In this document: piece by piece, positions 11,542 to 57,900 of the stretch
Layout: the number at the start of each line of letters is the position of its first letter
How positions within the stretch are numbered: the first letter of the stretch is position 1
Source: Prostheceraeus crozeri
Lineage: Eukaryota; Platyhelminthes; Polycladida; Euryleptidae
Reading direction: 5' to 3'
Length of the DNA stretch: 64,000 nt
Assembly: GCA_907163375.1 (NCBI GenBank)
Contig: CAJQUW010005278.1
Location: 186,001 to 250,000 of the forward strand
The notes under the pieces: generated by a model
Seen by the model: only the letters and a program-made list of their open reading frames with translations
Database searches by the model: none
What the model was told of the DNA's origin: nothing
Program-made: the position numbers and the translations under genes

Positions 11542-12060
11542 TTACCACATGGGACCGGTCTTACCACTATATACACGCACACAATGCCCATAGTATTTTG
11601 ACAGAATTGAGAACAATTCGAGTTTAGAGCGTACGACATGCCTCTCGGTCATTTTCACAATGCCATCTTCAGGTGAACAACAGTATGCACAGCATAAAAT
11701 TCTCTCAAATATAAAATCCACAGTTGCATCGGATGATATGATCACATTTCAAGGCTAAAATCATTCGCTAAAATCAATGGATTAGTCATCACAGCAGTCA
11801 CAGTAGAAGATACTCGTAGAATCATGAAATAAAATCAATGCTATTTACAGCTACAAATTTAGGAATAGATTCATGCAGCTTCCCCTTTCAGTAGGCGTTG
11901 GATAGTCTTTCAAATGTTCATTCATCCTAATGATGAAATGCCTGACCGAGCTACCGATGTAGCACTTGTCAAAATCCTCACAGTAATACTTGTAGACAAT
12001 GTTTAACTTGAGCTCGGCAGGCACTTTGTCTTTGTTAGCAAGGAACACACTGGTCATAAG
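11542..12060 (-). mobile_element. Penelope-like element 3' fragment (copy A)
   Basis: On the minus strand, 12057 to 11854 encodes a piece of a GIY-YIG endonuclease of the kind found at the C-terminus of Penelope-like reverse transcriptases. It has IVYKYYCEDFDKCYIGSS, then R and RMNEH, with conserved YIG, Arg and His. The second Cys of the usual CxxC is Phe here. It is followed by a short tail (MNLFL) similar to the 38-kb copy, but the intervening HPPH segment is deleted. Further downstream (11720-11590) is the non-coding terminus shared with the 38-kb palindrome, including CTGAAGATGGC and CATGTCGTACGC. It is 5'-truncated, with no reverse transcriptase domain, and is inactive. Confidence 0.75.
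11620..11682 (-). ncRNA. Degenerate hammerhead-like motif in PLE fragment A
   Basis: It is the homologue of the better-preserved motif at 38641-38692. The CTGAAGA core (11672-11666 on minus) and CATGTC site are kept, but the invariant GAAA is replaced by GAGA and the middle stem has diverged. It is expected to be non-functional. Confidence 0.35.
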
Positions 12061-15000
12061 AGTCTAGAAGACAGGGCGAACTTTGAAATTCTATATTTTA
12101 TAATGTTCTACATAACCTTGGATTCTAGGAATAACAATGCTGCATCTACTGAAAATATTGCATATTAATATTGAATATATATTCTGATCGATTTATACAA
12201 TAGAAAGGAATTTTATGAAATCACCTTAGAATTTAGAGCCTTAAATCTTGTCGTCACACGTTTTATATTACGAACATAATGCTGGTAGTCCGCATTGTAT
12301 CATCATTTTTATTTCATTTGATGTGATTAATTGCCGTTTACACATGCGGTGCTGAAGCTTGCTTGTATGTACTGTAGTTGCATAATGAATGATGTGTGCT
12401 TTATGTGCAATATTCTACATGTCATGATGATGATGAAGTATACTAGTTATGCTTTTATCTCTAATCTATGGCTTCAGTGGTTATGGTTCAATTTCATTTT
12501 ACTTTAGGCATCTGCTTTCAATGCCAACAGATAGCGCGCATTTTAAGGATAGTGCTACATTATTTGAATTGTACTTCATTTAATATCTACAACTACAATT
12601 TTTTGGTAACCTGGCGCGCGCACCATAAATTACATGCATGTCCAGTTAACACATAATTAGATGATTGATGAAATGACTAGAGCAAGCAAATTTAAATAAA
12701 TGATGCGATTGGAATACTTTTTATACGTGAACATGTTGATGCTTTCTGATCCATGAATTTGAGCAGTATTTTTTAACACGCTGAACCAAAGACTCAAATT
12801 ATGTACATATATTTGTTTTGACCTTACTTTGAAATGCGACTCTTCATTTCCATATGTTGGCGTGTGAAAATAATCAGGTTCGACATTACTTGCATTTCAA
12901 TTATATATTTACGTACGTACTTTTGATACTTGAAATATCTATGCTTTAAAGATTATACGTAGTTAGTTTCAGTGCTTCAGCTTTACCATGTGACACATGG
13001 TGCATATTGTTTTGCAAACAAATGATTACAGAATTGGTTGCAATAGCAGGGACTGTATTAGAAGGATATTCTACGGATATCGTAATTACTTATGGTTTGT
13101 CGAAATTTTCAACTTAGAACTTGGTTAAGGTACACGTATGTTCAGGATCCAATCATTTAGAGCAGTAATCCTGATGACTATTCTGTTCTCCAACAGCTTT
13201 GTTTTTTATCAGTTTTTCACATATGAATATAATGTATACGAGGAGACTGCTGACGAAGAGAGAAAAAGTGTCAACATTTGCTGTTCGTACTAAATTCGAT
13301 TGTATTCATTTTCAACATGATAACCTCGATAAGTATTGACAGACGAACTGAACAATTATTCAACCATTATTGGGCGCCCGACGAAAATATCTACTTGAAT
13401 ATCAAGGTCGTTTCCTTTCGAAATGTTTGATTCAATACTTAGCTCTATGACTTATGAAAGTGGTTTTTATTTCGAATTGCATGAGATAATGCTTTCATTC
13501 AAATGCCAATTTGATTTCACAATATGATAAGCATATAATTTGTTGGATGCAAGCCTTTTCCTTTTGATTGACCACATCAGAGATAATTTCATTAGCAATT
13601 AATTACAGAAAGTTGTAAGAGATCTAGAAAAGAAAGGTAATATTGACACAAGGGAAATCTTAGTACCTAGTGGAACCTATTGTTTGCAGAGGTAAATGTC
13701 ATTTTTGATATAATTAAGAAAATATTTTCTATCTAGACAGTTTTCGAAAACAAATTTTGCGAAAAATAATGCTTTTCTTAAATTTCTTATTTTGGTCTAC
13801 AAAACTTACAGTAGTTAGTGAATAAATGTGTACCTGTGATTAATGTTAGCTGACGTGAATATTCATGCTTCAACTCTTCGATGCAGTTTCACTTCATTTT
13901 TATTATCGCATAGAGTGATTGGTAGATAGATATTCCCGGAAATCTGAATGAATTTTTTGTCACGCATGCTCTTGATTCTGCTGATCAAATGCTTCATCCT
14001 TTAAGCAAATATTTAACGACTCAAACCATTTCGTCGCAGATGTCTGTTTGAAAACTTAAATTTTGCTCGTGATGCTTCTATATAGAACAGAAATGATTCA
14101 TTTTTACGAGCTTATGCATTTTGATAATATGTAGGATGTTTAATTGAGTGACAGATATTGACTGCGATAAATAGACAGTGACAAAAATGCTGGACTAATT
14201 ATAAATATTTTTGCAGTTTTTGTGCTTTTTTTACTCAAACACGATTTTAATGTTTGATATATAACCGGACATAGTACACCAATAGCTGAAAATATTCAAA
14301 CGAATCCTTTAATCTAAATGAAAAAATAGAAATAAAAACTTCAAATACACAAGCTTGACAAAATTTGTGACCAAAAGTCGTGTCGCAGTCGAACCAGAGT
14401 GGTCGGGCTGGAGTACTTACATGCAATGATTATACTAAAGCTCGAAAGATTTTATCAGATTTGTGAGGGTGTTGGCTTCCCCACGTCGTCTGTGGTAATG
14501 TAACGTCATAATTGTTAGGTTGTACAGCCACTATAATCATCTTACCGTGGGAAGAATGTCTTGATAGCTATTCAGATGTCTTAAAATTGAAAATATGAAA
14601 TTTTGAAGTGCATTGAAATGTTTCTGCAATTTGCAGTCATTATTGACATACGTTATAGCCATTATTTTGACAAGAATTGGTTATGCATATTTTTGAAACT
14701 GTGCAAGTGGGAATTAATCATGGAAATATTCTACACGAGCTCATAAGCTTTATTGGTTTATCAATAATACGTTACAGTATTCAGTTTTGAGCTTGGAATA
14801 TCTATATTTTCTGAAACCTACAGCGAATAGTTTGCCTCATGCAAAACACAAAAATAGTCATTGATTTTGTTACGTTTGTTATGACTGACGCAAGAGTTAG
14901 CTTGATATAAATCAGATAGCATGATAGACAGTATCTATTTAAGTCTCACTCTGAACGTCTGATTTGAATGCCACTAAACCGACTGCTGGGTTCAATGGAA

Positions 15001-18000: not shown

Positions 18001-19147
18001 TCATATTAGCGCATTTTACAAATTAGCTCAACGTGAAAATCAATCATAAGCAGATTGCTAATTTGAAATCCTTGATTGAAAAAAGTCATCAAGGATGGAG
18101 CGATTTCGCCATCTAGCAATTTTTAGATTTCATCATTATCTGTTGTCACTCGTTGGACGGGCTTAGTTCATTGAAAAAACTTTTCATAACTCATGCGATT
18201 GATCGCACGATGAAAAGAGTCACACGACTTCTCTTACTTGACTATATTCTTATTCATGTGATTGAATTCTTACTGTATTGATGTGCTGGATCTACTTTGT
18301 GATAAGAAGACGTCACGTAATAAATTTTCTAGGAGACTAAAATCCAACCTTATATACACCACATCACACATTCTCAGGAAATTTTTGTATTGGTGACTCA
18401 CATCAATAATTTGGTTTTAGTTGTTTGAACTTGCCAATCTAAATTTTCCGATGATTTATACGAATATCTAAGCTAGTAAAAAATCACACAGGCATGCTTC
18501 ATTTTTTGATTTTCTGACTTCGGTATTCGGATAAAAATGCTGAAGATTAGTTAAGCCAAGGAATCAATTGAACCGACGTCTGCGGAAAAATTATTGTAAA
18601 GTCTTTTGAAGAAGTCTCTACAATAAACAGGGTGACAGGTGCAACAAATGGACCAATCTTTCAATTTGACTATCACTATTTGATCAAATTTACATGTGGT
18701 ATGTTCAATCAAACTTGGTGCTAAATAACATTCCAATATCTGCAATGTAGAGTCACACCCTCATTTTGCTTATCTTATTAACTGCATTTAGCTAGTCTCC
18801 TACATGCAAACAGGTTAAATCATGCTCACGGCCAATTTGACATACTTTCAGTAACAACACTGACCATGATTCATTAGAAGTGAGACTTATGCAAATAGTC
18901 TTATCTTAATTGGGAAAGGTTGCTCGGGTGCCCATTGTATTGTTTCACTGCAGATAACGGATTATAACTCATATCCCACAAATGATATTGATATCGTACA
19001 GTATCATAATTTGAGTTCATTTACCAATTTTCTTTCAAAACTTCCTTGCTCATCATGCGTACTCTTGCTGATGCATGTTGAAAGCAATAATAAGCGATAA
19101 TTAAGCATGTGCTTTTCAATCATTCGCAAACATTGCCCTGTTTACAG
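12061..19147. other. Long stretch with no recognisable gene
   Basis: About 7 kb of AT-rich sequence with only short random-looking frames. It may contain the 5' UTR exon, promoter or first intron of the Kir gene, but no specific element can be pointed to. The final bases form the acceptor of the Kir exon. Confidence 0.5.
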
Positions 19148-19148
19148 G
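19130..19148 (+). other. Probable 3' splice acceptor of the Kir exon
   Basis: A moderately pyrimidine-rich tract ends in TTTACAG followed by GTG at 19148. The frame is also open further upstream to a stop at 19091-19093. An intronless 5' end cannot be excluded, because the first good ATG (19169) lies 21 bases inside. Confidence 0.5.
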
Positions 19149-20188
19149 TGTACCGACGTCTCCTGGATATGTCCGAAGCAGATTTAAGTCTTCCGTCGAA
19201 GGACGAACCTCGTCTCAATGTCACTGAAGCGGACATCGATATTGAGCGAGGACTCATCTCCAACTCCTCTGATCCATGCGGTACCACTGATGATGACGAG
19301 GATGAGCACAACAGCGACAAAGGAGCCCCAGACGAGGAGACATCGAAGGGAGCAGATTCGGAAAAATCAGCTCCCGACGAATCAACGAATCCACTTCAAA
19401 ATGAGCCACATGATCCTGCCGCAACGATGCTGAGTGCCATTTCCGAGCCTGTATCTGTTCTTCCAGATCCTCCAACCCCTAAGTGGACTTTAGGTAACCG
19501 ACCTGAGACCATTCGCAACACCTTCAGCGTAAGTCCAGTAGCGCCGAATGAAAGCTCCAATCTCGGTGGATCCAGTTCTTTTCTTGGCAACACTGCGTCC
19601 CAACCTTCAAGCGCTGCTGTGAACGGCGTAAGTGGCGGTGATGGCCGAAGAGGTCAATCACCTGGTCGTCCATTGCAGCATACTCTATCAGGTGCTGAGG
19701 AATTCGACGATATTGGACAGGGACGTGGGGGATCATTTATCACCGGACGTGTTTGGAATGAAAGTCGTCGACGATTTCATTCCAGCAAAAGGAGTTATCG
19801 ACGATTAGTGTTTAAAAACGGCGAGTGCAACATATCTCATGTAAATATCAAGAAACGTAAACGTCGATTTTTAGCTGATATTTTTACAACGCTTGTTGAC
19901 GTTAAGTGGAGATACACGCTCCTACTCTTTATTTGCGCCTTCATTATGACCTGGGTGCTATTTGCCCTGGTGTGGTGGTTGATAGGCTTTGCACACGAGG
20001 ACTTTGCCCCAAATCGACCATCGAATTGGCGTCCGTGCGTGAAACATGTAACTGGATTCACAACAGCGTTGCTCTTCAGTATTGAAACGCAACACACAAT
20101 CGGTTATGGACATCGTGTTGTCACACAAGAATGCCCTGAAGCCGTATTCATGGTTATGATGCAAAGTTGTCTTGGAGTCATCATTCAG
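19148..20188 (+). CDS. Inward-rectifier potassium channel (Kir), N-terminal/pore exon
   Basis: This exon encodes the first 340 residues of a Kir channel subunit, a plasma-membrane protein that assembles as tetramers and passes K+ inward. Counting from ATG 19169: residues 1-215 form a long tail rich in acidic residues (DDDEDE near 41-46), Ser and Pro. Then come RRLVFKNGECN (about 211-221), the slide-helix motif LADIFTTLVD (235-244), TM1 (about 249-274), the pore helix FTTALLFSIETQ (297-308), the filter TIGYG (310-314), and the start of TM2 ending at Gln340. The conserved Cys pair (290, 322) and the Glu306/Arg316 salt-bridge residues are present. The tail before TM1 is about three times that of vertebrate Kir2 proteins. 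The exon ends in phase 0 at CAG|GTGAGA. The cytoplasmic C-terminal domain was not found in the window. Family is certain; the subtype is closest to Kir2/Irk by eye. Confidence 0.93.
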
Positions 20189-20195
20189 GTGAGAA
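20187..20195 (+). other. 5' splice donor of the Kir exon
   Basis: AG|GTGAGAA matches the donor consensus, with the break after 20188 in phase 0. Reading on gives VRTSFAFIFVFSH and a stop, with no Kir similarity. This confirms the exon end. Confidence 0.9.
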
Positions 20196-23100
20196 CATCT
20201 TTCGCATTTATTTTTGTATTCAGTCATTAATATTTGTAGCTATAAAGATAGTTGATCGATGATTAAGGAGTGCCTGTATAATACAGGACAAGCTTGACAG
20301 AAACTAAATGGTCACCTTCCAATAAAAGCAGCATGGTCATTTGTCGGCATCGTCAGATGTGCTGAGGGGCCTCCGCGGTCCTCTAAGATTGCTCAACCGC
20401 AGTAATACATGATATACAGGAAGATGCACTAGATTTTAATTTGATTAAAAGATAATGCGATAGTTTGGGATGCAATCTGTAGATAGGTTGTACATGTATA
20501 GTGCCATATCCGTATAAAGCATACATTAACTTTCATATTGTGCTGCACATACACACATTGTGGATGTGATGGCTTGGTTACATTGTAGGAAAGTCAAGTG
20601 ATTACTATATTAGTATCTTCAATTTTTATCAATATCGGATAATTTCGATAATGATAATATCAATAAATTTTCGACCAGTGTTACTTGTGTTGCTTGTCGG
20701 AAGCCAGGAAATTGAACGATAGTCAAGTTTCATATTTACTATCATCAATATTAATAATAATCTTTTTATTTAGAACAACAGGAAAATAGGATGGTGCAAA
20801 AGTATAAAAATGAACGTATAAAAGAAAGTTATGAAATTATTAAAAGTCACGCATTACTGCATGGCGCCTTATACGGCAAGCCCGAAAATTTCAATATTTA
20901 TGATGAAAATCGGATTTGAAAAGGAATCAAAATAGTGTACTATGAATAAACTTGTTTACAGGTGAGAAATCAGGAAACATTTTCCAATGCACAGTGGTTA
21001 AGTGTGTTCACTGCAGTCATACTTTGAGGAATACTATATGCTATCAAAGGACGTGAATGATCGTTCATACATATCTTGAATTTAGTTATGTGTTAAAGCA
21101 TTGGCTGAACGTTGAAATTGTTCAACGCATAATAGTACTGCTTTGAGCACATCGACCAAGGCTTCAGATATCTTTCCGTTTATCTTGCGCTCCTTGTCCC
21201 GCTTCCTTGACTTGATCAATAAGGAGATAGCTTAGTATTGATGGTTAAGAGATAATTAAGTAGAGAACTTGTAAATTTCCAGTGAATGAAAATTGATGGC
21301 TTGTCTGAGAGAATCAGCAGTGTAGGATAGCTTCACTTACGTATCTATTGATAATATTCTCTCCGCAATTATTCTCGACTCATGAGATAATCGGTCGAAG
21401 CACCTTCTGCAAACTCATGCGGAATCTAATTCATCGGGATATGTTATAGATCACGACAACTGGTCAGTGTAAAATAGTTTTTTTTTCTATAGAATGACAT
21501 CATGCGACAGACGAATTACTAGGATAGTTTATATCAAAAGCTAAAAAAATTCCTTTTTATGTTAAGGTTGAATTTCTATTATTAGAAGGAAAGATAAATT
21601 GGAACGGACCTTTACAGAACAACGGAAATTAGTTGAATGTTCACTGACGCTTATTTGCAATCTATCTGTGAAGTATGTTGCTTTCTATTTCTTGGATTTC
21701 TGCTACTTTTAATGGTCTTATGATCGTCATTAGTCGCTTGTCTGCCGTAGATCCTTCGCTTCTAGTATTCAGTCCATGAACCTTCAGAGCTTTATCCGAC
21801 CGCTGGGTTTCGTCACATCCGACAATCAACAGCAGTATCCAGGGACCTACCTGAAAGTGCTACCAAGCCCGCAGTCCCTAAGACAGTCGCACAACTCTGT
21901 CACCTAGCTTATTTCTGGGGTAAGAATATTTCGCAAGTGATGATAACCTTACTTTGTCATCATCATAAATCTCATGGCGTGAACCAAATGTGCAATATTG
22001 TATTCTGGACATTTAATCTAATAACATGGAATAGTATGCAGTTGGTATTACAACAAGGAATTTAGGCCAGAAAAGTAGTCGTACAATTTTAAGGCACAAC
22101 ACGGACGAGGAGTTTACAACTTATTTATCGACTTGTTTATTTCAGTGTTTATGCAATTTTTTTATCTTGATCTCTCGACCAACCTCTGTCATGTTTTTAA
22201 CTAATTGATTCTATTGATTTCATTATTTTCTTAAATTGATTTACCAAAGCTATTCATTCCATGCTTGTATGATTATTTTCTTCAATTGATAAGAGTTATA
22301 ACTTATGCAAATATTGTTGACATCTTGGACTCTGTTAGATAAATTGAGATAGAAAAAATATTCCTTCAGTTCCCTCGTAAGTGAATAATTCAATAAAATA
22401 ATTAGGTTATGATACGTTATTCCGCACTTAGTCGACCTCTTACGCATGTGACTGTTTTTACAAACTCGAGTATATTTCGCAATTAGTACATTCATGCTTA
22501 TCTGTTGACAAGATACCTGTGTGCAGTCCTTGGAAATATGATATGTTGCAATTACGATGACGAATCTTAAGGATTTCAGGTTTTCAAGATACCGGATAAT
22601 GATTTTTACCAGTATCATGATGCCTGATTATAAGCAAAGTCGCAAAGTTGAATGAAAACCGCACCGAAATAGAGTTTTTGAATAAAGCTTACCGGCATTC
22701 ATAAAACCTCTGAGACTGTCTCATTTTCTTATTAGTCTTCGTACAATTTTGTTTTCACAATTTTCATATTGTAATCATTCTTTAATCGTAGTTTGCTTAC
22801 CTGATGTGTTTTTTTGCCGCAGAATATAATATTTCTTAGAAAACTATTTGTTTCTATTATCTGATCAGTATTCAAATCACAAATATTTATAACATGATTG
22901 TGGGTCATTAAGTCAGTTATTGTTCTTTCAGTACACCTGCGAGTAGATACAACTTTAACGTGTATGACGATTAATTGATAAAATTATATCTCTATCAACT
23001 GCACTCGCTTGTTATATATTCTGTCGTTGCTCATTTTACTCGTATAATGGAAAAATATGGAAAATGATGTCATTTAATTTTGCCTGACTCAGCATATAGT

Positions 23101-33487: not shown

Positions 33488-35835
33488 GTTGGAAGCAGGG
33501 CTGTGGAGCCGATGCGTTATCTCATCGGCTCCGGCTCCACGACACTGATGTGAAAGGCTCCGGCTCCGACTTCAAATTCAGGTTTTATCTATGCTGGTTA
33601 TCCTGGATCCGTTGAACGGGTTTTTTGGATAACGGTGTGGCCTTTAGAGTCTTGCTACAATCATCAAATTAGTTTTCATTAACAAGCAACGACTTAAGTT
33701 AATAATAAGAATGATAATAGCCTCATATAATGACAAATAACATACTTGTCATATATTTTTGCATGAATGGACTATCTCTGAAAGATAAAATAAAGTTATA
33801 GCCAGGATTGGTTAAATTAGATAAAGATCTCCCGCACTGGCTAAATATAAATTGGCCTAGCCTGCAACCAGTCTACTACGAGGCTACATTAAATAAGACC
33901 ACATGAGTGATGATGATATACCTAATTAGCCGTCACAGGGGCCGAATAGTAGTATAAGCTTTTTAACAAAGCTTGAATATGAAACTGGATAGCGTATGCC
34001 TCTAAATAGCTTATAGGGCCTGTATCTACTCGAACATGGAAAGGGTATCGGTTATATAGCCAAATATACCGTATCAATAAAGATATCAATTGCTTTATTG
34101 AATATTAAAGTGTATATAGGCTAGCTTAGGTTGTTATTGTTATTTGTTATTGCCTTTATTCAATAGTTTGTTGGTCCATGAATAATATGATCGGTGGGTA
34201 GCCCACGACTCATCATCTGTAGAAATTGTAATTTAGATAGCCTCATTGCAATGTAGGCTAGAAATGTACAATTGAAAATTATACTTAAAAAATTAAAAAT
34301 ATCTAATTTAGGACAAGTTTTGTAATTCTATGCAGCATACTTAATAAGTTAAGGCCTAACTTACATTATATTAATTTCGTATTTTTCATTATGGCATAAA
34401 GTTGCACTAAATAATTCATCAATGATTCATGTATATTATTATATTCAATTTATGTATAACACATTACCACTATTCCTCTGATGATGGCTAGGCTGATGAA
34501 ACTGAACTCGGAGTATCACACAGTATGTTGCAGGGTGCTATGCATAATAAAAATTTGACTGCGAGCACCGAGCAGAAATCCCATCTACTTTGCTAGCTTT
34601 CGAATGCGCGTGCGGTTTAATGTCACAGACAATAGGAAAGGGAGGTCAAAAGGCGCCTTTATTGAGAGCGTCTCAGTCTTTTTTTATTGTTTACATATAA
34701 GTCAGCATGATATCAGCATAAAGTGTTGACAGACGGAAAAAATAATAATGAAAATTCTTGAAATCCACAGGTCTATGACATTTGGGGAAATATTATTACA
34801 CGATACGGCTCTTGTGCAGTCCTCCCCCCCCCCATTTTTTCTCTGGTCAAAAGATGCAGCACCATTGGATGTCCGTTTCAGCATCATCGGTTTGAGTGAA
34901 GCATTCCGTGTTGTTGTAAAAATCTACGTGGGTAATTGCGATGTCATGGTCGCAAACTTCGTCAGCAAGTCAACATTGTAATTTGCCTTCGGGTTTTTCG
35001 CATTGAAATATACCCTTTGAATTTTGAAGTCAAAGGAAATTCATTGTGAATGAGATACCTTTAAAATAATAGGGCGCTACTAGAAGTGGCTGGGTCGCTT
35101 ATTGCTATAGCCATGTGAGGACTTGTAGTCAGGTCATTCGTGTGAGTGTGAAGAGTTATCCCTCCAATCAAAATTGATCAAATTGAATAATCGATTGTTT
35201 TGAAAAATGTAGGTGGGGGGACTGCACAAGAACCTACAATACAATCCAAGGAAATTGGCATTGTCACAGATGCCAGTAGCTTCTGCCAGTAGCCATACCG
35301 ATAGATATGATAGCCTACATAGTAACCGTATTAGATTTAAGACATTGCGCAAGAAATGTAGCTATATTATCTTTGCTGACTGAACTGGAAATGTGTACAT
35401 AAATGACTGGCGACTTGTCTCTAGGAATCTACAATCATCTAGTTAGCATGCATATAACAAGTCTTCAAATTAATGGATTTTGGAGAATACGTTGTCAATA
35501 TGGAAATTAGTCTTACGAAACATATGCAATAAAAAAATATTACACATGCGTGTAAATATATAATAAATATAATACAAAAGAAGGCGGCAACTGCAAAGAA
35601 AGATATCGTGGAGGACAGATCATTGGTATACTTAAAAGACATATCTTTAGATTTCAAATGATTTAATTTTTTTATGACGCCAATTAATAACTTTCAAAAT
35701 TCTAGATTTATATCAAAGCTCAAACTATCGGAGCCGGAGCCTTTGTGATAAATCGGCTCCGGCTCCGACCAAAACCATCGGCTCCTTAAGGCTCCGGCTC
35801 CGGCTCGGCTCCGGCTCCACAGCCCTGGTTGGAAG
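33488..35835. mobile_element. Non-autonomous hAT transposon with 8-bp target duplication
   Basis: The element proper is 33496-35827 (2332 bp). Both ends carry CAGGGCTGTGGAGCCG in inverted orientation, and the perfect octamer GTTGGAAG flanks it on both sides (33488-33495, 35828-35835). CAGGG termini plus an 8-bp duplication are diagnostic of the hAT superfamily. Subterminal GGCTCCGGCTCC repeats (three or more on the left to 33570, about six on the right from 35730) fit hAT transposase-binding sites. No transposase frame is visible inside, so it depends on another element. The perfect duplication points to a fairly recent insertion. Confidence 0.9.
34810..35238. repeat. Inverted repeat within the hAT element
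   Basis: TCTTGTGCAGTCCTCCCCCC (34810-34829) is complementary to GGGGGGACTGCACAAGA (35216-35232) apart from one C/T-run change. The pair could mark the ends of a nested small element about 430 bp long, or a structural repeat of the host transposon. No target duplication is clear. Confidence 0.45.
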
Positions 35836-36437: not shown

Positions 36438-37261
36438 TATGTAGTCACACTCCAATTGCGGCGGTTTTGTTATGAAACTCCTAAAACCTCTTCATTGATA
36501 CATTTAGGTGCGGGACCTATTTTTGGGCGGGTTATATGATTGTCCTTTCAATTCGTGTGCAGTTTGTATTCGAGGACGGGTTGTATTCGAGAAATTCCGG
36601 TAGCTGAATTATACTACAGCCGATATGCGATTGAACCGGATATTCTCATTTTTCCCGCTCTGAAGTTTGCAGGTGGCTAGATCAAGCAGAAATGAGATTT
36701 AATTCAATACGTGAAGTAATATAAGAAACTTCATGAAGGTAGGACTAATGTAAGGGGTAAGTACTTCATGAAGTGAAGTCAATGTGTGGTTATCCGAAAT
36801 CAGTCGCATCGACGGGGTCAACCAGATTAGAAGCATCTGCTGTTCGAATATTTCTATAATTTTTTATTATCATCTTCAACACTTTAATGTCACTCAAGGT
36901 TTCAATTATCAAATGGATCAGCTTGCTTGCCATTAAAGTTATTATCCAATGACAGTCTTTAATGCATTGTGCGATCTTTGGTGAAATTCTTTGTCATTGT
37001 AAAATTCTTTGAAATCGGTCTTGCAGTCTCTTTGATTTCATGTCTCACGTTGAATCTTCTTTTCCGCATGAAGTAAGGTTAGAGCTCCTTTCTGATCACG
37101 GAACAGGACCAAATTTACCAAATCAACTGTCGTTGAATCGTGAGATGAGAAATTCTCGTGTGCTCCATGAAGTGAGTGGAAGGGCTCCATCTTGTTGATT
37201 TTACTTTTTTCATAGTTCGTCCGTACGGGAGGTCAGTCATATTCGTCGAAAAGATAAACTT

Positions 37262-37361
37262 AAATCGCTCCCTTTGTTCGACGTAATTCGTCATTACGCG
37301 TCGGGCGAGTTTTTTGACTATTTTAAAATAAAGAATTGCGTCAAACAAAGGGAGCGATTTT
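37262..37361. repeat. 100-bp hairpin with 28-base arms
   Basis: AATCGCTCCCTTTGTTCGAC (37263-37282) and its near complement GTCAAACAAAGGGAGCGATT (37340-37359) lie within arms of about 28 bases with two mismatches. The arms enclose a 43-base loop. Confidence 0.7.
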
Positions 37362-37753
37362 ATTTTATCTTTATAACTAATATGATTTTACTCTCCTCGT
37401 TTCTAAGAAACGGCATGAATATAGCTTCCTGCATTTGGAGATGAGAGTTCACTCGAACTTCAATAGAAGAGAACCAATTAAATATTACTCTGACATCCTC
37501 GCCCATACGAACACATTGTGGACGGCATGGTATCCTAAAAGTGAAGATTCGCATGACCACGTAACCATATTTTGACTTTTGATGTCGCACAAACTGCACA
37601 TTCATCAAGGTACATTCAACACGAATCTACGATCTTCATTTAAATATTCAATAAATGTTGGTTTGAAGGTTAATGAGGAATGAATCTCATTCCATTGTGT
37701 AGATCTTGCATCATTACAATATAACATAATTTAAGGAAATAGTGCCCATAGTA

Positions 37754-38330
37754 TTGAAAATCGAAAAGAATTGAAAACAATCCGTGTTCAGGCGCACGAC
37801 ATGTTTCAGCTTTACAAAGCCATCCTCAGGTGAACAAAGATATGTACAGGATAAAATTCTCTTAATTATAAAATTCGTGGTTACATCGGATGGTATGATC
37901 ACATTTCAACGCTAAAATCAAGGTCATTCACAACAGTCAAAAATACAAAGAATAATGAAATAAAATCAATTCTAAATTTACAGTTCTACACATTTAGGCA
38001 TAGATTCATGGAGCTTTCCCGTTCATTCATCAGGCTTTTGTTCGATTTCTTTAATAGAATAGATTCCAGATGTCTAGGGTACCTCGTCTGAGAAACGACC
38101 TTGAAATTATCTTTGTGAGGAGGATGAACATGCAAGCTAATTTTAGAAGACGTTGGGTAGCCTTTCAAGTGTTCATTCATCCTAGTAATGAAATGCCTGA
38201 CCGAGCTGCCGATGTAGCACTTGTCACAGTGCTCACAAGAATACTTGTAGACAATGTTTGACTTGAGCTCGGCAGGACATTTGTCTTTGTTAGCAAAGAA
38301 CATACTGGTCTTGAGAGTCTGGAATTAGCC
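37754..38330 (-). pseudogene. Penelope-like element 3' fragment with GIY-YIG endonuclease (copy B)
   Basis: The minus-strand frame 38303-37986 encodes 105 residues of a GIY-YIG endonuclease domain as fused to Penelope-like reverse transcriptases. It has VYKYSCEHCDKCYIGSSVRH (residues 18-37) with the Zn-type Cys pair (C23, C26) between the VYK (GIY) and YIG halves. Conserved R36/R41 and N43-E44-H45 follow, then HVHPPHKDNFKV and a conserved tail ending MNLCLNV. The domain would nick target DNA for retrotransposition. No reverse transcriptase lies upstream, so the copy is 5'-truncated. The 3' non-coding part (to 37754) carries a hammerhead-like motif. Bases 37754-38148 are repeated inverted at 38331-38723, making a near-perfect palindrome around the endonuclease segment. 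Confidence 0.85.
37787..37840 (-). ncRNA. Hammerhead-like self-cleaving ribozyme motif (PLE terminus, - copy)
   Basis: It is the mirror copy of the motif at 38641-38692 on the opposite arm of the palindrome: CTGAGGA at 37829-37823, GAAACATGTC following on the minus strand, and the same stem I halves. No base differs in the core. Transcripts from either strand of this locus would therefore each contain one forward motif. Confidence 0.55.
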
Positions 38331-38723
38331 TTCTGAAATTAGCTTGCATGTTCATCCTCCTCACAAAGATAATTTCAAGGTCGTTTCTCAGACGAGGTAC
38401 CCTAGACATCTGGAATCTATTCTATTAAAGAAATCGAACAATAGCCTGATGAATGAACGGAAAAGCTCCATGAATCTGTGCCTAAATGTGTAGAACTGTA
38501 AATAGAATTGATTTTATTTCATTATTCTTTGTATTTTTGACTGTTGTGAATGACCTTGATTTTAGCGTTGAAATGTGATCATACCATCCGATGTAACCAC
38601 GAATTTTATATTTAAGAGAATTTTATCCTGTACATATCTTTGTTCACCTGAGGATGGCTTTGTAAAGCTGAAACATGTCGTGCGCCTGAACACGGATTGT
38701 TTTCAATTCTTTTCGATTTTCAA
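38331..38723 (+). mobile_element. Inverted partner copy of the PLE 3' end (copy C)
   Basis: This + strand segment repeats the complement of 37754-38148 at roughly 97-98% identity by eye. It encodes the tail of the same protein (SLHVHPPHKDNFKV to MNLCLNV, stop at about 38490) and the same 3' terminus with the hammerhead-like motif. It starts inside the endonuclease sequence, so it lacks the GIY-YIG core. Inverted 5'-truncated pieces joined to a main copy are a known habit of Penelope-like elements. Confidence 0.8.
38641..38692 (+). ncRNA. Hammerhead-like self-cleaving ribozyme motif (PLE terminus, + copy)
   Basis: Seen: core 1 CTGAGGA (38648-38654, fits CUGANGA); stem II GGCUU/AAGCU with a short loop (38656-38669) after one unpaired U; core 2 GAA (38670-38672). 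Stem III is a minimal two pairs (A38673-U38678, C38674-G38677), followed by C38679 as the cleavage-site residue. Stem I is CAC/GUG next to the core, a 6-base bulge, then UGUU/AACA (38641-38644 with 38689-38692). This is a type I layout. Minimal type I hammerheads with very short stem III are known from Penelope-like terminal repeats. The unpaired U and two-pair stem III make activity as a monomer uncertain; cleavage would fall after 38679. Confidence 0.55.
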
Positions 38724-41700
38724 CAACATAATTTGTTTATTATGTATACTATTTCATAAATCATTCTTATTTATTATTTACTAATCGTTTTCTATAGACT
38801 TCTATTTAATTGGAAAAGTAAGCATTTAATTCCCATCAAAATATTGGGGTTCTGTAAGTGAGAAAGATTGTTCATAATATTGAACGCAGTCGCTTCTAGC
38901 TCAGCCCTCCCTGCAAATACCTACGGTTTTAATCTTCACAATTAGTAGGCCCACGTCCCATCACATTTTGTCCTAACCGAGCATTCAAGAAGATACATGA
39001 CCAATATACAGGGAAGATGATTAAATTTTCTTAAAATGATCTCTACTTGATCACGTGGTTCATTCGTGGTTATGAACATGACTGAGAATGTTTGATGCTG
39101 ATTACAATACATGTATTCAACTCCTTGTTATCTTCTTCGCCAGAAAATAGCAAATATAGGATAATTGTTCTTAGCGCATGTAAACAGTCATCTAAGGCTG
39201 CGTTTCCAAAATCCAACATGAGAAATCATTGCGATGCTATCAACGGATGTGAGTCGTTCTCGAATATCAAAGGTTTTTCGCATTAACTGCAATAAAGCGA
39301 TAGTTCTTTGCGATAATTGTCCTTTCAATAAGGAGTTTCATTTCTCATGTCTTCTATTAATCACATTTTATTGATTGTCAGAGGTCTGAAATAAGGTTGC
39401 AATGAAGCAATATTCTAAATTCGAATGATAATGACAAAATTCTTTTTACATCTCTATTTCAATGTCATACGTTTTCATTCAATGATTATACATGTGGATG
39501 TATTTCAATAGCTTATCAGAATATATTTATCGAAATCATCGACTTAAACATAGTAGTTATAGATATTTAATTATTTGATGTGATTGAAGTACTTCTATAT
39601 TCACTTTGTGTAGATATGTTCATTCTAGATTTTATTGTTTTGTTATTTCGTATCTCGTAATTGCTTCATCGTAAGATGTACCATATGGCCTTAAAATAAC
39701 GGCTCAAAAATGAAGAACATTGAATCATTGTATAGGGGCCTCAATTATGCAGATTTAGCTGCTGTTACTAATGAGACAAGTTATTCACTCCTTAGCAAGC
39801 AACACGTAGACAAAATAAGACAATAATTGACTATTTGTTTAGTGAAAAATTTCGTGTTAGTCGGATAATGCATGCGTATGGTGTTGATGCGCTGATGAAT
39901 GTATCAATTGTAACAATTAAGGCTGTTGGTCTTAACTGCTTTAACAAGATTATGCCATACTTAGACCCATGCTAAGTATCAGATTCGACAGGAACTCAGT
40001 GACCGATTTCAAAGTAACGCTTTGCTTTTGTCCAGTGACCTATTACTTGATTTAAGCTAATCAATTATAACAATTTCAAAGCACAGTTTACGTAAAAGTA
40101 TCCCATGATCAGAAAGAACCTTCCACGTGCTTGCTAAGTTCACAGAATGAGGCCTGGTTCAGTTAGCCTTCAAATTCTCTCGTTTAATAAATAATCTCAA
40201 CTGATCGCTAATGTTCTGCACGTACATGTATATAAGAACAGAACAGTCCTGAGTCCAAGTGTTGTGATTTTATTACACTATGATGAATGAGTATCTTCGA
40301 ATTGCTTGTGTCAAGGTGTAAAAAAGAATATGTATGACTATTGCAGACGGACTGAGAACATCGATTATCAAAACTTCTCTCTTCATTCTTTTAGCCTACA
40401 AAATGTTATATGTTGATTCTTGCTCATGAATTAGATCTATTACATACCCAATACTTTCATATCAATATCATGTTGATGTGGATGTGCTTAAAGATACTTT
40501 CCTAAAAGAGTCAATGGACAATTAAAAAAAAACTAGCAGTGAAGGCGGAGTTCTCTCTGTATATCAAGCTAGGTAGGGAATTCAAATAATTGATGGCTTA
40601 GAGATAAAAGTCAGTTGCATCTTTCTAATGAGTTACGTATATTGGTTTTTTAAAGAGCAGTACTCATAATGAGATCATTTTGAAGTAAAAATTTAAAATT
40701 CTAGGTTTCAATGCCTACAGAGTACCACACAGTAATACCTACATTTCAAGGTCAGAATTCACTTAGACATGAATTGAACTCATGAGTTTCATATCCATGA
40801 GTTTTATATTGACAAGTATAATCTTATTATATAATTCTCATTCTAAAACTTGCTAATAGCAATTTCTCAGTATAGAAATTTTTCTATCTCGACTTACTTG
40901 AACAGTGATATATATTTAATTACGTTAATTTTTTCTTTTTGTCTCGGCTTTCCGAACTTGACTCATCGTTTGACAGTGTTATAATTGTACCAGTCGCTTG
41001 ATTACTGCTATTGAGGCGTGTGAATTTTATGCACGTTATTCTGGTATCAAGTTTTGACTGCTGCGTGTGCGCTGTTAATGTGATCGGTCGGAGCTGCTCA
41101 GGCGCTTAATTGTGTGTAATTCACGTAGAGCAATTTATTCACGTGAAAATGCAAAAGTGGTTTTGATTGTAAAATGAGGATTGTGAATGAGTTGATTCCA
41201 ATAATTGTAGCCCAGGTTTAACCCATGGTTGTTTGACCTCAGTCTTGATGACGCGATCCAAGATGATCGATCTTGACGTATTGATGTCCAATGCTGTAAT
41301 ACGTCGTGGAACCTCATGTTTTGAGAATGCTGCAATCTGAATTCACTTTTAGGAACACATTGCAATGATTTAAATGTTTTAAGATCAATATTTTTGCTAC
41401 TCCCGTTATTATGCAGCGTCCTCGCTACACAATATCAAAAATCTAAAATCGAATGAAATACTATCACCACTGAAACTCGATGTCTTACATATCAGTAAAA
41501 AGCAACAACTAGCAAGTAGCAAGAAGATCTGCAAATTAGTAAATCGCTAGCATAGCGTCACAGGCATGGATTTGATCCCTGTGGTTATCGATAAAGGCAA
41601 AATATGAAAACAGTTTTATAAACTTCAAGTACAGTGTGTATTGAATGCAACAATACGAACAGTCCTATTTGCGCCTATTAACATACCTGCAGTGAAAGAG

Positions 41701-54439: not shown

Positions 54440-54960
54440 CTTTTTCTCCGGTAAGTATAAAGTTGTGCCCGATTTGAAAGCTAACGTTGTATACAAATGC
54501 ATCTGTGATCACTGTGACAGGTGTTGAGTGGGTATCTCTAGACATAATTTTACTACCAGAGTCAACGAGCATTTGAAAGCCTATCCGACCCCAACAGAAA
54601 TATAAGTAGGCATATTCCCTCGCCGAAGGTAGGGAACTTCAAAATCGCTGCATGTACATGTACTGAATGCCCTGCATTTCTGGAATCAGTTTTAATTTAG
54701 AAGTTTGACTTTAACAGTCATGAATGAAAGGACAAGCTCCGTCAACATAGCATTAGATATGTAGTTTGCGATCTCAATGTTCAGATTTTACAGCTATCTT
54801 CTATGCAAGTGGTTTTCCAATTAATTTTGACCCTTAGCGGCCAGTGATTTTAATTCGATGACTTTCCCGATTATATATTGAAAAACTTCCCCTACCCACT
54901 TTGTTCAGTTACCTCTGAAGATGGCAAGAAATTATGGAAGTATGTAGTGTGCACTTAAGA
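54440..54960 (+). pseudogene. Penelope-like element 3' fragment (copy D)
   Basis: The + strand reads KVVPDLKANVVYKCICDHCD then RC, a stop, and VGISRHNFTTRVNEHLKAYP in the same frame. It is therefore the GIY-YIG endonuclease segment with an in-frame stop replacing the YIG tyrosine. A decayed tail follows (MNERTSS at about 54720-54740), and at 54912-54960 a diverged terminus with CTGAAGATGGC and GTATGTAGTGTGCAC corresponds to the hammerhead-like region of the 38-kb copies. It is the most decayed of the PLE fragments and lies in the opposite orientation to copy A. Confidence 0.75.
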
Positions 54961-57900
54961 AGAACTTGGCTTTTCATTCAAAATTCTCTGGCCTATCTCC
55001 AAAAGAGACATTCGAATATGCACTCCATTATAAGATCATATCTATTGACCGCGCTATCGTTATTTCAAAAAGCAAATTTACTTGGTCTTTGGCGAAAATT
55101 ATTAATAAACAAATTTATATGCAGGACACAGATCGTAACATTTTAAAGCGGTGCTTGCTACTTATCCTTTTTTTGGTTGCACAATCTGACACATTTATTT
55201 CTGATTGCTTTAATTTCTTATTGAGGAGATGGATTATCGCAATGGTCATCCTTCAGAAATATCTATGATGCAGATAATCTAGATTACTATGAATATCAGG
55301 CTTAGCTTTTAACTTCGTCTTCTCATTTTACCGAGAACTGATAAGTTATCCTGATTCAATTACTTTCACAGTCACATGCGTCCATCCTTCTATATATTTG
55401 CAAGCGATGGCTTTGAGTATACCGAGGCGCAGATGAGGGTCTTCGGTCTTCGGTTGACAGCATCTTTTACGTATACTGACTTCTACATTTTATTATTGTT
55501 TATTTTATTATTTTTATTATTGTCCATTAATTATTGTTTGAAATATCTCAGCAAATAATCACTATCGAAAAATGATGATATTATCCAACGTAATTGATGT
55601 TAGCGAAATGCGCCATTTTCTCAATTTAGTTGACTTGATCCAGAAGCATGTTAATGCAGTTTTCAATTTACAAAGCAAATCCCAATAATTTTTGAAATTA
55701 CTCGACAATCTGGCAATTTGTTTCTCGTGCAATCCAAATCCACGAAAACGAATTTTCCATCGATAGCTAACCGGTTCGAAGCCTGTACAGTCTGTGAGAC
55801 TGTCAGCATCATCGCAATTTTGACCGTGTTGATCTAAATGGTTGAACAGACAAGGATTTCCATAGAACAGAAAATTATTTGTAGATCATGTTACTTGTGT
55901 GAGTCAGCAGTGTAATTGTACTGCTGGTTTGTTGTGGCATGGATACATCTACATCCCCTTACATCTAGCTATCCATGGTTGTGGCTTCTGACTCACGTAC
56001 TGGTGTGTCATTTCACTGTGTTTACATGCATCACCCATGAACTTTCATTGCCACTAATGGCCCTCTTACATCATACAATGGTTGTATTTAATACTTCGAG
56101 AAATTGACATTTTTGTCAACTGAAGATGAAGTTCAGACGCACGTATTATCTGAAATTTCGTTCTTTGTTTTTATTGAATTTTCTGCTGAATTTACTGACT
56201 TATGCATGATGTCTTGTAAACAACTAGCTCATATTCAACAATGTTTTTGAAGACGGCTACTTATAGGTGAACAACTTGGCCTATCATGCAGTAAATATAC
56301 AAATCGTTAATTGTCACTTTTCGTTGGATCACATAACCATGCTTTTATATCAGAGAAGAAGGACGGTTAATTGATTTTTCTCGGATGAACAATCCAGATA
56401 AAAGTAAATTATCTCCAATCTTGCTATCAATTTTTCAGTTCAGTGAGTGTTTCAAGACCGAGCGGGAGTGTAGCTGTACCTGTACAACGTCAATCAAAAT
56501 TTATCGCATGCAGTTTGTTTATCAAACAATTATCCACGATCTATTGTCAAATGTTCTGGTAGTAGGCCCTAGGTTGCATTGAAATCCATTACTCATTGCA
56601 CTTCTAAGCTCCAGATGTTATATAGACTATCCCATGTAGTGAAATTATTCAACATCTGGAATAATTTTACAATAGATAGCCTAAGGAATATGGAATGCTT
56701 CCAAAACTCATACAAGCTAGAATACAGGATTCTGGAACTTCATTTCAGATGAAGTAGGGTTTGAACTACATGTATAAGTTGCTTGAAATCATTTTTTAAA
56801 CTGTTTAAAGAGCAGTTCGCATTATTTTAACACAAAACATGCGTGTAGATGCTCTCAACTTGTGTTGCATTTCCATGCTCTTAATGTTGTAAAGGTTGAC
56901 GAAGCAATTCATTCCAGACTGAATGTAGTCAACGATCGACGTGGGTCTAATTAAATTAGCAGGCCGGCCGTTCTTCAAAATTTGTGGCTGGGTCCAACCA
57001 TGGAGAACAGGTTTAAAGATTCATGGGGACCTAAGTAGCATATCTTTTGCAGTCTCAATATTGGGTTTGACACCTCAAACTGACCCAAAATCAAATATTC
57101 AATCTTTCGTCAGGTTTTCGTTAGAAAGTTTCATGCAATAAATCACAACCTGATAAATGTCTTCACAGCCAACAATCCTTTATCTCCTGAACCGATTGTA
57201 CCATACATAGATAGTTCTGTGATCCTAGCTATTGCACTAGTAATTATTACTTGTGACAAAGAATAATGGGTTGTGGAAGCTATCATAATTAATGTGGAAA
57301 ACTCGTCTCAGTATTACTTCAGGATGTTTGGTTGAACCATCGTAAAATTTAGATAATTGTGACATCATTATATTTTAGTTATTGCAATTTGTGGTTTTGC
57401 AAATAATGAAATTCTCTTTTATGTTAGTTATGATCTCTTTCTGTTGTTGGAGATTATCAAAAATATATTTTCATTGTATTGTTTGGATAACAACACTGAA
57501 TGGACTAATTCAAAAGAAATGCCCTACACGATCTTAAAAATTATTTTCATCCATGAACAAGTTAATTAGATTGATGACAATGTCGGCATTCTATCAAGTA
57601 TGCCCACAATCAATTTTTATTTTTCCTTATGTTCCGTCACTATCGTTAGTATAGAAGAAAAATCAAAATTAATTATGCTGTCACGGCGAACTCTCTCTCC
57701 CATCCCGTTCGTGCCGTCCTTTTATTAAGAATTATATGTCTTATCTTATTTTGATAAAGTAAAGATAATTTCTTATCCAAGTTATGGAGCATGAACTGAG
57801 GGTGTTTTTGGAGTTTAAGGTAAAGCAATCAGTTGTTATTGAATGCAAAGCACTCTGACGATAAAATGCGCAATCATGTTAATGCTCATAATAACATTCT

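Follow-up and report, generated by a model that had tools for sequence, protein, structure and literature searches.

A minimal type I hammerhead motif within a probable fold-back Penelope-like insertion of the flatworm Prostheceraeus crozeri

A 64,000-nt stretch of contig CAJQUW010005278.1 of Prostheceraeus crozeri (hereafter the window) holds a 52-nt motif that was proposed, from its letters, to be a hammerhead ribozyme in the end of a Penelope-like element. Its stem III has only two pairs and an unpaired U precedes stem II, raising the question of whether it cuts only as a dimer or when both arms are present. Our analysis indicates that it is very probably a Penelope-like hammerhead of the minimal type I form, surviving in a pseudo-LTR of a fold-back insertion that is 5'-truncated and dead (Table 1). 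The letters, a covariance model and the inverted pseudo-LTR arms all support this reading. As was also anticipated, hammerheads in Penelope ends are an established kind in the consulted sections of three reviews (PMC6155905, PMC7761336, PMC6466107).

Table 1. Features of the hammerhead, the fold-back unit and the older copies (positions in the window), and of three viral contigs with repeated motifs (positions in each contig)
Feature	Positions	Strand	Basis or remark
Minimal type I hammerhead motif	38641..38692	+	sequence, strict descriptor, covariance model
Core C3-A9, CUGAGGA, N7 = G	38648..38654	+	sequence
Extra U, unpaired, after A9 and before stem II (U of AUG 38654-38656)	38655..38655	+	
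Stem II with loop UGUA	38656..38669	+	5 pairs, one G-U
GAA	38670-38672	+	
A15.1; U16.1; C17	38673; 38678; 38679	+	
Stem III letters ACAUGU, perfect 6-nt palindrome	38673..38678	+	
Second hammerhead, identical over 52 nt	37785..37836	-	arm alignment, strict descriptor, R1
Longer of the two inverted arms, with GIY-YIG fragment, pseudo-LTR, hammerhead and tail	37733..38329 (inner end approximate)	-	
Shorter of the two inverted arms, with C-terminal part of the endonuclease, pseudo-LTR and hammerhead; untailed	38330..38724	+	
21-nt tail, long arm only	37733..37753	-	
C-terminal GIY-YIG endonuclease fragment, 112 codons, stop to stop	37986..38324	-	Pfam
Left target-site duplication copy, AACATAATTT	37723..37732	+	
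Right target-site duplication copy, AACATAATTT	38725..38734	+	
Older decayed copy of element end, broken hammerhead	11585..12069	-	
Highly decayed third copy	about 54453..55000	+	local alignment
Viral contig L024, 6 R1 matches	between 204 and 3664	+	
Viral contig L112, 3 R1 matches	between 881 and 2519	-	
Viral contig L195, 3 R1 matches	between 778 and 4144	+	

Re-reading the sequence confirmed the place and letters of the motif, and every invariant hammerhead letter claimed for it was found (CUGANGA, GAA, the A15.1-U16.1 pair and H17, here a C). We number it by the hammerhead scheme, with positions 38648-38679 assigned as C3 to C17. The arms of stem II (38656-38660 with 38665-38669) pair in the order G-U, G-C, C-G, U-A, U-A. 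Stem I has the bulged type I form that was predicted for it, with an inner part of 3 bp (38645-38647 with 38680-38682) that a one-sided bulge of 6 nt separates from an outer part of 4 bp (38641-38644 with 38689-38692). Stems I and II are able to form. The two pairs claimed for stem III can be drawn, but they enclose 2 nt, which is an unrealistic hairpin within a monomer, so that a stem III could form only between two copies; the ACAUGU palindrome could pair in this way, which would suit the dimer mode reported for Penelope hammerheads. Cleavage is predicted between 38679 and 38680, in agreement with the original prediction and with the assignment of C17.

We searched with a strict descriptor consisting of the core letters, an optional extra base, a stem II of at least 4 pairs, A15.1-U16.1, H17 and a stem I of at least 3 pairs. 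It matched the window at two sites, the motif and its minus-strand mirror, and detected no second same-strand copy of the motif within the window. That the core letters arose by accident in AT-rich 64-kb animal sequence appears extremely improbable. The descriptor does match by accident, with 3 matches in 300 first-order simulated 64-kb sequences, and the loose pattern CTGANGA..GAAA occurs 17 times in the window against 7.2 expected, 4 of these 17 lying inside the fold-back; against chance, the motif sits in a Penelope pseudo-LTR with the geometry of an anole element, and its core outlasts the background identity in an old copy near 54.9 kb (both described below). The descriptor also gave two matches, among the matches listed, in 120 viral loci (1,053,979 bases), which were preselected by a related pattern. 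These two matches, in L024 and L071, look like intact hammerheads and so were not counted as background.

The identical minus-strand hammerhead, absent from the original prediction, is carried by an inverted copy of the element end. The two arms align over 37754-37974 and 38503-38723 (221 nt, 1 mismatch, at 38611) and over 37976-38149 and 38330-38503 (174 nt, 4 mismatches), with a small gap between both parts. Both copies of AACATAATTT, 10 bp long, directly flank the fold-back unit; when pairs of stretches of equal sizes were drawn at random from the window, 18 of 20,000 had a word of at least 10 nt in common. The start of the tail is also present in the copy at 11.6 kb, and the copy at 54.9 kb aligns through it; because its start recurs in both older copies, the tail is element sequence. 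Thus the arms show what is looked for in pseudo-LTRs: they are inverted, one of them is tailed and a target-site duplication surrounds them. The simplest reading of this arrangement would be that a 5'-truncated Penelope-like element, now dead, inserted here once.

A GIY-YIG endonuclease tail had been described just 5' of the motif. The plus arm contains only the C-terminal part, and the part with the YIG motif lies in the minus-strand mirror arm, at 37986-38324. This fragment matched the Pfam GIY-YIG family with E=0.0013 and 19.4 bits, under the cut-off of 22.6, and the older copy matched with E=0.026. No relatives of the endonuclease fragment were confirmed in the viral_contigs and genome_contigs sets.

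The same architecture has been described in rotifers. In the consulted sections of PMC3846280, rotifer Penelope elements have inverted pseudo-LTRs, one of which may bear a 31-bp tail, and duplications of 9 bp, 10 bp or 8 bp, the inverted arrangement being the typical structure; some elements lack duplications or have their pseudo-LTRs in direct orientation only, and self-priming is discussed for inverted structures with palindromic junctions. Pen2a_Av and its relatives from Adineta vaga, as presented there, resemble the fold-back in that their pseudo-LTRs are inverted, one is tailed and a 9-10-bp duplication is present; they have in addition a direct pseudo-LTR and the reading frame, and their tail measures 31 bp versus 21 nt here.

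Mirrored arms could also come from an error of assembly or from an inverted duplication at a later time, rather than from a single insertion, and an identity of 98.2% is what one would expect of chimeric reads or of a duplication that is recent. We nevertheless consider this origin highly unlikely: the arms differ at 5 positions and by one gap over the 396 aligned, only one of them is tailed, the 10-bp duplication encloses the whole unit, and the rotifer elements share its plan (PMC3846280, sections consulted). Elsewhere in the window, we observed a separate inverted repeat of 59 nt and 83% identity (37237-37295 / 37327-37385), approximately 340 nt from the element, and an inward rectifier potassium channel exon (19094-20227, plus strand; Pfam IRK, E=2e-53), which together with the Penelope copies points to animal DNA.

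Two of the 13 loose matches outside the fold-back fall in decayed copies of the element (11653, score 445; 54915, score 151), the latter being a local alignment score, where none of 375 control regions (400 drawn, 25 overlapping known copies removed) exceeded 84. A further loose match, at 34478, was rejected as a copy, with a score of 46 versus a 95% level of 45 and the same maximum of 84 in the controls.

The 11.6-kb copy is 87.5% and 73.5% identical to the fold-back in two pieces, and in its hammerhead GAA is changed to GAG, A15.1 to G, and 6 nt are inserted. With a background identity of 78%, it retains 10 of 12 core letters, and CTGAGGATGGC is unremarkable there, 84 of 232 pseudo-LTR windows matching as well. 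The 54.9-kb copy has a pseudo-LTR background identity of 44%, yet 10 of the 12 hammerhead core letters match; the two that differ are N7, where G has become A, and C17, which is also A, and hammerheads permit either change. Of the 232 pseudo-LTR 11-mers compared with this copy, none but CTGAGGATGGC reaches such a match; over the entire arm, 15 of 587 do. Stem II is lost in the 54.9-kb copy, and A15.1, which lies outside the twelve counted letters, is a G in both older copies. Reading the alignment by eye, we found no compensatory stem change in these two copies.

The position of the motif can be compared with that of PAc, the Poseidon/Penelope element of Anolis carolinensis, whose hammerhead lies at the pLTR-ORF junction (PMC11167929). 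The PAc reading frame begins where stem II starts, with C3 and G8 preceding it, and the cut falls 26 bp past the start codon (PMC11167929). The window motif would likewise sit at the pLTR-ORF junction; its C3 and G8 lie before an AUG, whose A is A9, and from 38654 to 38679, both counted, there are 26 nt, so that the AUG at A9 and a predicted cut 26 nt on reproduce the PAc geometry. Conversely, the reading frame of PAc is complete and its copies stand in tandem (PMC11167929), whereas the window holds inverted fragments only and the frame from its AUG closes at codon four. This early stop occurs in the motif copy (38654-38665) and in the 11.6-kb copy, with different stop codons; as far as these sequences suggest, the element reading frame in this family may start elsewhere than at the core AUG.

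These data bear on whether the letters were kept for another reason, such as a start codon, coding or a reverse-transcription start signal, with RNA cleavage being incidental. The overlap of the AUG with the core would agree with this, as would the one other frame that is open through the motif in both the fold-back and the 11.6-kb copies, and PAc RNA with a dead ribozyme inserted normally in vitro (PMC11167929). We regard this explanation as unlikely, however, since the AUG frame closes so early, hammerhead letters outside ATGGC are also kept in comparison with the 54.9-kb copy, and single mutants of C3 and G8 in PAc lost cleavage while the double mutant partly regained it (PMC11167929).

The original prediction suggested an Rfam covariance-model search. 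We ran it and obtained no hammerhead, either in the whole window at the gathering threshold or in two window stretches at E up to 10. Likewise, at the gathering threshold Rfam found none in 13 viral loci with intact hammerheads (L024, L071 and 11 chosen loci), nor did it find any in L024 and L071 at E up to 5. Because intact viral controls were missed too, the silence of Rfam on the window carries no weight.

We therefore rely on a covariance model of our own, R1, built without the window. Its 35 training sequences, all of them viral hammerheads that carry the extra U, were picked from 63 among the matches listed. Their stems covary strongly: 92.3% of stem cells are paired and 152 cells are changed on both sides, versus 47 in shuffles, a covariation that is partly built in since the sequences were preselected for pairing in stems I and III. 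With filters off, R1 gave its highest score in the window to the motif and its mirror copy (27.6 bits, E=9e-07). The next-best site reached 12.2 bits (E=0.14), and the decayed copy at 11.6 kb reached 11.5 bits (E=0.26). In ten loci with intact viral hammerheads, which include six chosen for lack of the extra base, the best match per locus scored 31 to 65 bits, placing the window motif below all ten; intact viral hammerheads mostly outscore it under R1.

The R1 selection pattern shares letters with the window motif, and we thus used letter-matched controls. Among the matches listed, 122 CCTGANGATGGC..GAAAC sites comprised 27 with both stems of at least 4 pairs, 89 stemless sites and 6 that were intermediate or near an end. 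The controls were the 89 viral loci, out of 120, whose site lacks even a 3-bp stem I and a 2-bp stem III. With default filters, R1 reached 27.6 bits in 2 of these 89 stemless sites (L053, 31 bits; L009, 28.2) and not in the other 87, although some of the controls may be real hammerheads with imperfect stems. Because two letter-matched stemless sites score as high as the motif, its E-value is too optimistic; the match itself is good.

The unpaired U at 38655 had been considered a weakness of the motif, a concern that comparison with other hammerheads did not bear out. We surveyed 318 viral stretches for the pattern CTGANGA-N-GGC..GCC-GAAAC, calling a site well-formed when stems I and III had at least 4 pairs. 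The pattern occurred in at least 124 distinct viral sites, at least 64 of them well-formed (0.12% with shuffled flanks); without the extra base, the same pattern was well-formed in 104 of 131 sites among the matches listed (0.38% when shuffled). Among the matches listed, the extra base was T in 61 of the 64 well-formed sites (A in 2, G in 1) and, over all 124, T in 103, A in 12, G in 6 and C in 3. One of the viral scans required a T and another left the extra base free; among the matches listed, loci new in the latter had T in 35 of 37 well-formed sites (A in 2) and in 63 of 83 overall, indicating that the preference for U is not made by the query.

These viral-contig hammerheads (IMG/VR) resemble the window motif in their core with the extra U, but differ from it in having a strong stem III and in being mostly GC-rich. 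Viral contig L127 has two similar hammerheads, at 11756-11808 on the minus strand and approximately 1.9 kb away, of which one contains the extra U and the other lacks it, so that nature itself offers a comparison differing in one base. Others have several hammerhead-like motifs along a few kb (L024, L112 and L195; Table 1), with R1 matches of at least 43 bits each and no Rfam match at the gathering threshold; these repeated hammerheads might trim viral transcripts stepwise.

The plus hammerhead of chrysanthemum chlorotic mottle viroid (CChMVd), a plant circular RNA, has, like the window motif, one extra base between A9 and stem II, but there it is an A instead of U. According to the consulted sections of PMC3705267, the extra A makes trans-cleavage moderately slower, its change to U increases the rate 3-4-fold, and C or G are very harmful. 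The hammerhead literature that we searched names an extra U at this place only for this viroid A10-to-U change (PMC3705267), and the consulted sections of PMC3088659, PMC11014351 and PMC6155905 do not name one at this place. The unpaired U is probably no defect, and the viral and viroid comparisons suggest that U38655 is compatible with catalysis and perhaps beneficial. A bolder and doubtful possibility is that selection has made the extra U, rather than being noise, an additional residue of the core in a hammerhead subclass of its own, common to Penelope elements and many viral-contig hammerheads, which in Penelope elements would also make the AUG of the ORF start, with the result that cleavage and translation of one RNA would be mutually exclusive.

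How such a motif might cut is best considered for the active element and for this locus separately. Penelope hammerheads are characterized in the consulted sections of PMC6155905, PMC7761336 and PMC6466107 as minimal, without helix III, and may cut as double hammerheads; by these descriptions (PMC7761336, PMC6466107), they are type I with a nearly absent stem III, like the window motif. In folding calculations, which leave tertiary contacts and Mg outside, the hammerhead fold of the 52-mer reached -2.2 kcal/mol versus -10.7 for the best fold, and that of a two-copy form -10.0 versus -30.9. The folding energy of the isolated 52-mer was no better than that of shuffles (z -0.16). Because the hammerhead fold loses to the best fold both in the monomer and in the two-copy form, cutting likely needs help. 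In PAc, the ribozyme showed no cleavage without protein, and an endonuclease-dead protein still supported it (PMC11167929).

In an active element, the ribozyme would straddle the junction of pseudo-LTR and reading frame, and thus a tandem transcript could be cut at 38679/38680, perhaps aided by two copies pairing through the ACAUGU palindrome or by the protein of the element, as in the anole. The insertion itself probably arose when reverse transcription started at two neighbouring RNA positions, with one cDNA made from each target strand, which would leave a tail on one arm only. PAc reverse transcription in vitro used two neighbouring start sites and was primed on both target strands (PMC11167929), which would explain the one-armed tail; the tailed and untailed outward ends with a short duplication would fit two-strand, two-start priming.

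At this locus, conversely, the two copies lie on opposite strands, and the dimer question thus belongs to tandem copies elsewhere. A monomer that works here and cleaves host read-through transcripts appears very improbable. All invariant letters are intact in both copies and the extra U outpaces A in the viroid hammerhead (PMC3705267, sections consulted), but the monomer fold is unfavourable, with stem III absent, and in a 992-nt transcript of the whole unit all 52 motif bases pair with the mirror copy, whichever strand is transcribed. This burial in a mirror hairpin, together with the lack of a second same-strand copy in the window, suggests that the copy is most likely an inert, dead fossil of a known type.

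The motif kind is already known, and what this locus adds is the mirror copy, the insertion anatomy, the failure of Rfam on intact controls and the recurring extra U. Since the Rfam gathering thresholds passed over every hammerhead of the 13 loci examined, surveys that depend on these thresholds may count too few hammerheads. The recurrence of the extra U in natural hammerheads agrees with older viroid mutagenesis, and the question raised by the small stem III is met by known biology, a weak stem III with help from a dimer or protein being the reported state of Penelope hammerheads. Finally, the fold-back with its one-armed tail is a natural record that fits the two-strand, two-start reverse transcription seen in vitro for PAc.
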